DNA from: a virus | Direction: 5' to 3' (one strand) | IMG/VR virus record: IMGVR_UViG_3300037319_000040 | Span: 1 to 23,646 of that record | Length of the DNA stretch: 23,646 nt | Shown here: positions 12,612 to 16,709 of the stretch, piece after piece | Numbering within the stretch: position 1 is the first letter of the stretch | Layout of the letters: each line of letters begins with the position of its first letter | Position numbers and translations under genes: made by a program | Notes under the pieces: model-generated | What the model was told of the DNA's origin: nothing | Seen by the model: the letters and a program-made list of their open reading frames with translations, nothing else | Database searches by the model: none

Positions 12612-12911
12612 TTAGTATGTAAAAAAGCCGGCACACACGCCAAGGTATCCACCGGTGCTAGTTGGGCGGCGAATTAGCTCGCTCATGTCTACAGCACCAA
12701 CCCAGCGTTCCCACGCCTCATTAAAAAACACAACGTAGCTGGCTGGCTTGATTTCCTCATTTGGCACTGTAAAGTTTGTAGCTGCTTTGGTAGCAATATT
12801 AAGCGTGGCTTTTTCAGCGGCAGCTTGTGAGCCGTAGTTTTTGCAGGGCTGCTTGTTTTCTTTGCGGTAGTCTTCAATGCGCTCGGTAAGTGTTGTGATA
12901 ATGTTTGCCAT
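12612..12911 (-). CDS. Hypothetical early protein (99 aa)
   Basis: A 99-residue protein with a good ribosome site (AGGAG, then AAAGCAAA, then ATG). A helical, charged N-terminus (ITTLTERIEDYRKENK) is followed by an Ala/Lys-rich part and a compact C-terminus (YVVFFNEAWERWVGAVDMSE). No motif I recognise. What is notable is its leader: the ribosome site is one arm of an 11-base perfect inverted repeat (12920-12974) and lies just downstream of an operator-like dyad, so its expression is likely to be controlled separately from the rest of the operon. Confidence 0.65.
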   Translation of the reverse strand: MANIITTLTERIEDYRKENKQPCKNYGSQAAAEKATLNIATKAATNFTVPNEEIKPASYVVFFNEAWERWVGAVDMSELIRRPTSTGGYLGVCAGFFTY

Positions 12912-12919
12912 TTTGCTTT

Positions 12920-12974
12920 CTCCTGTTTGGTTGGTATGTGTTTATTTTATACACAAAGACAGGCCAAACAGGAG
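12920..12974 (-). promoter_or_regulatory. Inverted repeat sequestering a ribosome binding site
   Basis: CTCCTGTTTGG (12920-12930) and CCAAACAGGAG (12964-12974) are perfect 11-base inverted repeats around a 33-base AT-rich centre. Read in the leftward mRNA, the first arm holds CTCCT and the second holds the AGGAG used by the gene starting at 12911. The hairpin would hide that site in any transcript from upstream. A transcript starting inside the centre (TATAAAAT on the minus strand, no good -35) would lack the first arm and be free. Confidence 0.5.
12937..12955. promoter_or_regulatory. Operator-like dyad in loop of inverted repeat
   Basis: The dyad follows TGTGTnTAnnnTAnACACA and spans 19 bases, with the minus-strand -10-like TATAAA inside it. 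It sits 26 bases upstream of the gene starting at 12911. A repressor bound here would block a local leftward promoter. The binding protein is unknown; the ribbon-helix-helix protein encoded next door is a candidate. Confidence 0.4.
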
Positions 12975-12993: not shown

Positions 12994-13010
12994 TAGGTGT
13001 TTACCCTATT
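12994..13010. repeat. Repeat copy shared with divergent control region
   Basis: TAGGTGTTTACCCTATT here matches TAGGTGTTTACCCCTATT at 15459-15476 in 17 of 18 positions, with one deleted C. This copy covers the stop codon of the ribbon-helix-helix gene. The deletion spoils the inner symmetry present in the other copy. Confidence 0.6.
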
Positions 13011-13580: not shown

Positions 13581-13781
13581 TTATTCCTTGGTGGTTAAAA
13601 AATATTTTGCAAACGTTTTGCCGTTTTGTGTGACGTATTCTGTCTTTATTGCCATTCCATTTTTGCGTAACTTATGAATCGCAGCAGCCAGTCTAAAACA
13701 GCCGTATTTATTTAAAGCCTGCAACGATGTTATTGACTTGCCAGACATTAAATATTTTTGGATTTGATAAATTGCGGTCAT
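13581..13781 (-). CDS. Helix-turn-helix protein, HTH_39 family
   Basis: A 66-residue protein whose ATG forms ATGA with the exonuclease stop. The sequence QKYLMSGKSITSLQALNKYG followed by CFRLAAAIHKLRKNGMAIKT matches the HTH_39 phage family (PF14090): the SIT-x-x-x-A-x-x-xYG-x-x-RL-x-x-x-I-x-x-L pattern is nearly complete. The wing ends with NGKTFAKYFL. Length is normal. In other phages these genes accompany recombination or replication genes. DNA-binding is likely; the target is unknown. Confidence 0.8.
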   Translation of the reverse strand: MTAIYQIQKYLMSGKSITSLQALNKYGCFRLAAAIHKLRKNGMAIKTEYVTQNGKTFAKYFLTTKE

Positions 13782-15029: not shown

Positions 15030-15230
15030 CTAGTATGCGATTTTGATTTCGTCAAAGTCCTCAGCGCCAAGCGTCAACTCTTGGCCGTGAATTAAGATGG
15101 TAGTCTGATTGCCAGACTCCATCTTTTCTTCAAGGTCTAGCATCGCGTCGATGTACTCGTCGCTTAACTTGCTGACCAAGGCGGCTATTTTTACAGCGCC
15201 CTGGTGGTTTACCGAATAAAGTTGTTTCAT
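15030..15230 (-). CDS. Hypothetical early protein (66 aa)
   Basis: A 66-residue protein whose start forms ATGA with the preceding gene. It reads as helical (AALVSKLSDEYIDAMLDLEE) with a short beta-rich end (TTILIHGQELTLG, EIKIAY). The stop TAG lies in the ribosome site of ERF, so the two are tightly linked. No family recognised. An accessory role in recombination is suggested only by position. Confidence 0.6.
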   Translation of the reverse strand: MKQLYSVNHQGAVKIAALVSKLSDEYIDAMLDLEEKMESGNQTTILIHGQELTLGAEDFDEIKIAY

Positions 15231-15397
15231 ACCTCAACTACCTCAACATTGTTGCCACCAAACTCCTCAGCCTGCTCAGCCATCGCAGACCATGATTGAT
15301 ATCCTGCACATGAGGCAAAAGCGTCTTGTGCCTGGGCTTTGTCACGGCCTTCGTAGTTGCCATAATCTAAACCGCATGAATGAAAATTAAAGGTCAT
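15227..15397 (-). CDS. Hypothetical first gene of leftward operon (56 aa)
   Basis: A 56-codon gene behind AGGAG (leader CAAACAGGAG). It carries two cysteines (FHSCGL; FASCAGY), an Ala/Gln-rich middle (RDKAQAQDAFA) and an acidic end (NNVEVVEV). It is the most promoter-proximal leftward gene and overlaps the next by ATGA. The short length and lack of motifs prevent a functional call. First genes of early operons are often host-takeover factors, which is only a possibility. Confidence 0.6.
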   Translation of the reverse strand: MTFNFHSCGLDYGNYEGRDKAQAQDAFASCAGYQSWSAMAEQAEEFGGNNVEVVEV

Positions 15398-15458
15398 TTC
15401 TAACTCCTGTTTGTGTTGCTGACGAGGTTATTTTAACGCAGAAAAAACACGTTTTATC

Positions 15459-15474
15459 TAGGTGTTTACCCCTA
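15459..15474. promoter_or_regulatory. Operator-like dyad in divergent control region
   Basis: TAGGTGTTTACCCCTA is symmetrical as TAGGnGTnnACnCCTA (12 of 16 positions). It lies in the 112-base gap (15398-15509) between the divergent early operons. Candidate -10-like elements on the minus strand (TAGATA directly beside it, TAAAAT further down) put it where a repressor could block leftward, and perhaps rightward, transcription. A near-identical copy is at 12994-13010. Confidence 0.5.
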
Positions 15475-16569: not shown

Positions 16570-16709
16570 ACTATTACACAGCAAGAAAAATACTTGATTT
16601 GGTGCGTGAAGGTAGGGATTACCCTGTATTCATAATCAACCAAGCGTTGTACATTATTAGTGAGCTTACAGAGGAAGAATATGAAAAAACAAAGCAAATA
16701 CAAGCCTAA
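16566..16709 (+). CDS. Hypothetical small protein (47 aa)
   Basis: A 47-codon gene starting in an ATGA overlap with the replication gene and running 29 bases into the next gene. It contains YTARKILDLVREGRDYPVFI and an acidic end (ELTEEEYEKT). The end region also holds the ribosome site for the next gene. Real by coupling; no function recognised. Confidence 0.5.
   Translation: MNYYTARKILDLVREGRDYPVFIINQALYIISELTEEEYEKTKQIQA

Follow-up and report, generated by a model that had tools for sequence, protein, structure and literature searches.

A conserved hairpin around a putative internal promoter probably shields an exchangeable gene slot from read-through translation in uncultured phages

In the 23.6-kb viral record IMGVR_UViG_3300037319_000040 (positions 1 to 23,646, hereafter the window), a long inverted repeat at 12920-12974 probably acts as a translational insulator around an internal promoter: RNA reading through from upstream is predicted to hide the Shine-Dalgarno (SD) sequence of the gene whose ATG lies at 12911, whereas RNA started in the loop of the hairpin would leave it free. 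The hiding of the SD in read-through RNA is a computed pairing; the conservation of the hairpin and the -10-like hexamer in its loop are read from the sequences themselves. If the reading is correct, a device that phage T4 employs for the control of single genes appears here, judging by sequence, as a fixed regulatory slot in an uncultured phage family, in which the switch is constant and the gene changes. Separately timed accessory genes could then be found from their leader alone, and it would become testable how an operon of a phage can take in a new gene and still avoid its premature expression.

The repeat consists of two perfect 11-bp arms with 33 nt between them; on the plus strand, CTCCTGTTTGG occupies 12920-12930 and CCAAACAGGAG 12964-12974, both exactly. 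In the leftward direction the second arm carries AGGAG (12924-12920), the SD of the 12911 gene, with a spacing of 8 nt, and the whole element occupies a gap of about 90 nt on the 3' side of a gene for a small ribbon-helix-helix (RHH) protein (Table 1). The original prediction had described these arms correctly and had proposed folding of the leftward transcript as a check. Read-through RNA folds with -22.1 kcal/mol (z = -4.52, with 0/200 shuffles equally stable), and its SD is paired with upstream sequence, as is also the case in the computed folds of the relatives. An RNA begun at 12940, on the other hand, is unstructured (-0.2 kcal/mol). Between the arms lies the dyad TGTGTnTAnnnTAnACACA, the sole exact match to which within the window is the one at 12937-12955, and the inner stem is paired in 12/12 close relatives, via G.U in 4/12. 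No Rfam family matched the window at gathering score (0 matches). An intrinsic terminator was considered and rejected, as no T run directly follows either arm and none was called at 12920-12974 on either strand by a scan that permits loops of 3-8 only.

Table 1. Positions of the hairpin, the putative promoter elements and the neighbouring genes in the window
Feature	Position	Strand	Remark
5' arm (anti-SD strand)	12964..12974	-	CTCCTGTTTGG in leftward RNA; exact 11-bp repeat; conserved or compensated in relatives
3' arm, including the SD AGGAG	12920..12930	-	CCAAACAGGAG; its leader recurs at further promoters in this phage group
Inner stem and loop TGTGTATAAAATAAACACA	12937..12955	-	5-bp stem, 9-nt loop
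Loop hexamer TAAAAT, putative -10	12944..12949	-	hexamer types seen in 22/22 RHH-anchored loci
Box AGGGTAAACACC, putative regulator site	12996..13007	-	58 nt before the -10; a copy lies at the first promoter
Arc-like ribbon-helix-helix (RHH) gene, 45 aa	13001..13138	-	stop codon inside the box; precedes the hairpin in anchored relatives
Presumed controlled gene, 99 aa, PHROG 3633, no known function	12612..12911	-	other genes in the slot in other phages
First leftward promoter: box GGGGTAAACACC	15461..15472	-	37 nt before the corresponding -10
First leftward promoter: putative -10 TAAAAT	15430..15435	-	leader without stable hairpin
First leftward gene (15227-15397): CAAACAGGAG leader with SD	15404..15413	-	

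A search for the dyad together with AGGAG identified 35 viral contigs; most of the extra matches to the bare dyad were dropped, as they belong to unrelated conserved sequence. In addition, we sampled relatives without reference to the motif, by fetching loci through their single-strand-binding and ERF proteins and locating the RHH gene by profile. Twenty-two loci had an RHH match with E below 1e-15 and remained after the removal of near-duplicates (90% identity) and of three truncated loci; the weak profile matches L019, L083 and L024 were left out of this count, because these sequences are not RHH genes. In 22/22 of the non-redundant loci a hairpin follows the RHH stop, holds a -10-like hexamer in its loop and places its 3' side at the next SD, the hairpin of L225 being the same as that of L085. 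The first arm, the absence of which from relatives the original prediction had named as evidence against it, is present and paired in every one of them. The SD is less well paired in L231, L232 and L236; here the stem stops just short of it or the SD has the box as its partner. The arms themselves vary among relatives, distant phages having, for example, TTGTGTTGCGATGTGT and ACACATCGCAACACAA, and the element is found before differing genes (MANI.., MDFN.., MTKK.., MTQF.., MKVF.. and MKHY..). Altogether, the slot genes fall into more than ten small families, mostly without a known family. The strict pattern gave no match in 84,980 bacterial and archaeal genomes, so that no prophage or host was identified, and the stretch examined of Methylophilales phage MEP301 had neither a box nor an RHH match.

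The loop is probably a promoter, judging from the sequences of its neighbours. The original prediction had named TATAAA as a -10-like element. In the relative L002, whose downstream protein is 97% identical, the corresponding position reads TGTAGAAT, which destroys TATAAA and keeps TAnAAT; therefore, the conserved -10 is TAAAAT at 12949-12944, with a predicted transcript start near 12937-12939. The loops of the 22 loci contain TATAAT, TAGAAT, TAAAAT or TATACT, each matching the -10 consensus in at least five of six positions (read from the listed sequences). A sigma-70 promoter scan of the window did not call the loop, and box promoters lack a -35 element, the best match being 2.68 of 6 versus 2.56 in shuffled sequence. 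The first leftward gene is preceded by the same CAAACAGGAG leader, as originally noted, yet simple copying as the origin of the arm is not supported; CAAACAGGAG is a portion of the leader common to the promoters of this phage group. On the sequence evidence, the 12911 site stands out by an extra upstream arm complementary to this common leader. For the leader of the first leftward promoter, the fold of 15390-15460 has a z of +0.39.

Among loci selected purely by protein, a palindromic box of the AGGGTAAnCCCT type occurs as many as three times in a single locus. The two boxes of the window are nearly identical and stand at different distances from their -10 elements (Table 1). The boxes lie some 37, 47 or 57 nt before the -10; the distances between boxes and near-perfect -10 hexamers cluster at 35-39, 46-47 and 56-60 nt, i.e. 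in steps of about one helical turn. A near-perfect -10 at a phased distance accompanies 34/68 non-redundant boxes, compared with a mean of 7.4 and a maximum of 16 after shuffling, for offsets that were set after the peaks had been seen and at sites that are related by descent. Class I and class II activated promoters show a CRP-type spacing. The present arrangement resembles them in having a palindromic site with its centre at around -42 or -63 (the box lies at about these positions from the predicted start), steps of roughly a helical turn and no -35; it differs in the site, here AGGGTAAnCCCT, and in that the binding protein is only putative. To our knowledge, AGGGTAAnCCCT is no recognised activator site. 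The phased box without a -35 suggests an activator site, and AGGGTAAnCCCT-type boxes with a phased -10 and no -35 apparently constitute an undescribed phage regulon. Recurring box sites were noted at 15461-15472 and 12996-13007 of the window and in loci L222, L227, L231, L232, L234, L235 and L237. L085, L091, L015 and L018 have a degenerate box or none behind the RHH gene, and the hairpin and the -10 are retained there. At 2048-2062 of L232 a single box is shared by a divergent pair of promoters, with the -10 at 38 nt in both; the gene that starts on one side encodes a protein with the N-terminus MNELALFAGAGGG, which looks DNA-methylase-like by eye. A loose form of the box pattern was dropped (103 matches, near chance expectation by a rough estimate), and a motif resembling the box, at about 16612-16623, falls within a coding frame and is probably due to chance.

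The hairpin tracks a position and not a promoter or gene type. Seventeen promoters behind the RHH gene have a median MFE of -25.1 and a median z of -5.9, versus -8.1 and -0.6 for 16 divergent first-gene promoters (labels set by hand) that possess a like box, -10 and leader; the Mann-Whitney p of about 1e-6 is only nominal because the sites are related. The same holds for cargo of one type in two places: an AQQQM-type gene has z -5.1 behind the RHH gene (L195) versus +0.25 as first gene (L018), and SD pairing at an MKHYPNQ-type gene is 1.00 in L107 versus 0.37 in L091. Internal promoters behind a second cargo gene (L143+477, L091-8796, L231+1876 and L097-3603) mostly have no SD-hiding hairpin, and thus internal position by itself does not predict one. 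In isolated phages of Pseudomonas, Xanthomonas, Variovorax and Burkholderia, the homologues of the 99-aa gene show no significant leader structure (z -1.9 to +1.4). By these sequence comparisons the hairpin stays with the slot and does not travel with the 99-aa gene.

These data can be held against other functions of a conserved hairpin. We consider it unlikely that the element is a protein-controlled RNA operator without a loop promoter, in which a translational repressor or activator would bind the conserved loop nUAnAAUAA. Loop and inner stem are indeed among the best conserved parts, and hairpin operators that overlap the SD are known in phages, as in the case of T4 gene 43 (PMC3014915). 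However, all loop variants are good -10 hexamers, promoters without a stable hairpin bear the same hexamer and leader, and an RNA operator does not predict the phased spacing between box and hexamer.

That the repeat is a DNA operator, i.e. a dimeric repressor site over the -10 with the RNA fold as a by-product, appears quite improbable, although the inner dyad overlaps the -10 and a weak TGTGT/ACACA symmetry also occurs at hairpin-free promoters. The arm sequences differ among relatives while the pairing is kept, and on the sense strand of the symmetrical subclass 24 G.U stand against 2 A.C. Folding is stronger on the sense than on the antisense strand in most of this subclass, but not in the subclass to which the window belongs. 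The dyad is moreover broken in L200, L188 and L007, where ATACA replaces ACACA and the strands re-pair through other bases; the 19-base dyad of the original prediction is therefore present at 12937-12955 but not conserved as a separate operator. Co-changes of SD and anti-SD are seen as well, GGAG occurring with CUCC or CUUC and GGGG with CCCC (L230 and L233), and in L111 both strands of the outer stem have changed. Since the 3' arm is nearly constant, the counts of two-sided changes do not exceed those of shuffles, and formal covariation is therefore not claimed.

T7-like phages use processing sites at which a stem is cleaved. A processing or decay site of this kind, where a long stem is cut (e.g. 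by RNase III) and downstream messages are released for translation, would fit stems that reach 20-25 pairs (L095, L212), but leaves the loop -10, the phased box and the end of the pairing at the SD unexplained, and is in our estimation very improbable. Chance, or a functionless leftover of promoter duplication, is scarcely credible: the leader is common to the first promoter, but the hairpin persists with changed arms in all anchored loci.

The insulator thus remains the preferred reading, and its context is an operon. The leftward genes from 15397 to the RHH gene are tightly packed on the same strand (gaps of -76 to +11 nt), and the terminator scan called nothing between the RHH gene and 12911; the weak terminator-like matches farther upstream in the operon are about as numerous as expected by chance. 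RNA started upstream, for example at a promoter before 15397, would run through the leftward operon and carry both arms; CUCCUGUUUGG would pair with CCAAACAGGAG, burying the SD of the 12911 gene and leaving the gene untranslated. If, in turn, RNA polymerase starts at the loop -10, the RNA would begin at about the predicted start and hence lack the 5' arm, so that the SD would be open. With read-through silenced and the loop start open, the 12911 gene would be expressed only when its own promoter fires. The original prediction of a private switch for one gene of an operon is favoured in this form by the comparison of relatives. Promoter activity, transcript start, translation block and activator are what we infer here from sequence. 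The loop promoter lacks a -35 and probably needs a factor bound, on the same helical face, to the palindromic box. The benefit of read-through silencing is less obvious if one factor drives both the first and the internal promoter.

This arrangement has a counterpart in T4, where long early RNAs conceal the SD or start codon of e, soc, 49 and I-TevI (PMC3014915, PMC2988022). Synthesis of T4 lysozyme is about 100-fold lower from the long early RNA, and the late-promoter RNA lacks the 5' strand; further cases are I-TevII/III, segB and mobE of Aeh1, with the late promoter beside or within the hairpin (PMC3014915, PMC2988022). The likeness lies in an SD that is buried only in RNA from an upstream promoter (here in computed folds), in a nearby promoter whose RNA lacks the 5' arm (here predicted) and in a gene placed inside an earlier transcription unit (here presumed from the packed same-strand genes). 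However, the T4 promoter is the late one, TATAAATA, together with gp55, whereas the loop described here has a sigma-70-like -10 without a -35 and usually with a box upstream. TATAAATA is absent, the loops reading TAAAATAA, TAGAATAA, TATAATAA or TATACT, and the element is outside the T4 late-promoter system. In T4, furthermore, the hairpin is tied to particular genes, whereas here it marks a fixed slot behind the RHH gene with changing cargo. A similar logic protects the transposons IS10 and IS50 from impinging transcription: transcripts coming in from outside fold and mask the ribosome-binding site, and those from the inner promoter do not. There, however, the structure guards the transposase of a mobile element, and neither a transposase nor mobile ends were seen here.

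The RHH protein is the natural candidate for the box-binding factor, because the stop codon of its gene falls within the box and because box promoters are likewise present in 50/55 RHH-bearing loci; this co-occurrence could also stem from shared descent. The RHH signature of the 45-aa protein comes from PHROG Arc-like families (E 5e-5 to 6e-4), and neither Pfam nor PDB gave a match. One may tentatively picture a plug-in port with a timer, a possible but rather doubtful extension of the insulator: RHH protein translated from the long early transcript would bind the box and fire the loop promoter, and the slot gene would be on only after RHH protein has accumulated, the hairpin silencing it before. 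A second candidate regulator is encoded in the same operon (window 13584-13781), namely a 66-aa winged-helix protein (HTH_39), which is present in 31/50 of the loci having both box and RHH gene.

Several variants of the element were observed. In the sub-lineage of L212, L200 and L194, which have the element behind the RHH gene, the inner stem is swapped for TTTGTCCTGTATTT/AAATACAGGACAAA and the stem comprises over 20 pairs, with the -10 still in the loop. L107 (5800-6500) has two hairpin elements in tandem, each before its own small cargo gene, in the manner of a repeated unit. Finally, a 60%-identical relative of the 99-aa gene on a 242-kb contig (L003, 595-665) has an unrelated leader with z -4.6, in which TTATACT lies in a loop and the SD region is paired, and which may be an independent case.
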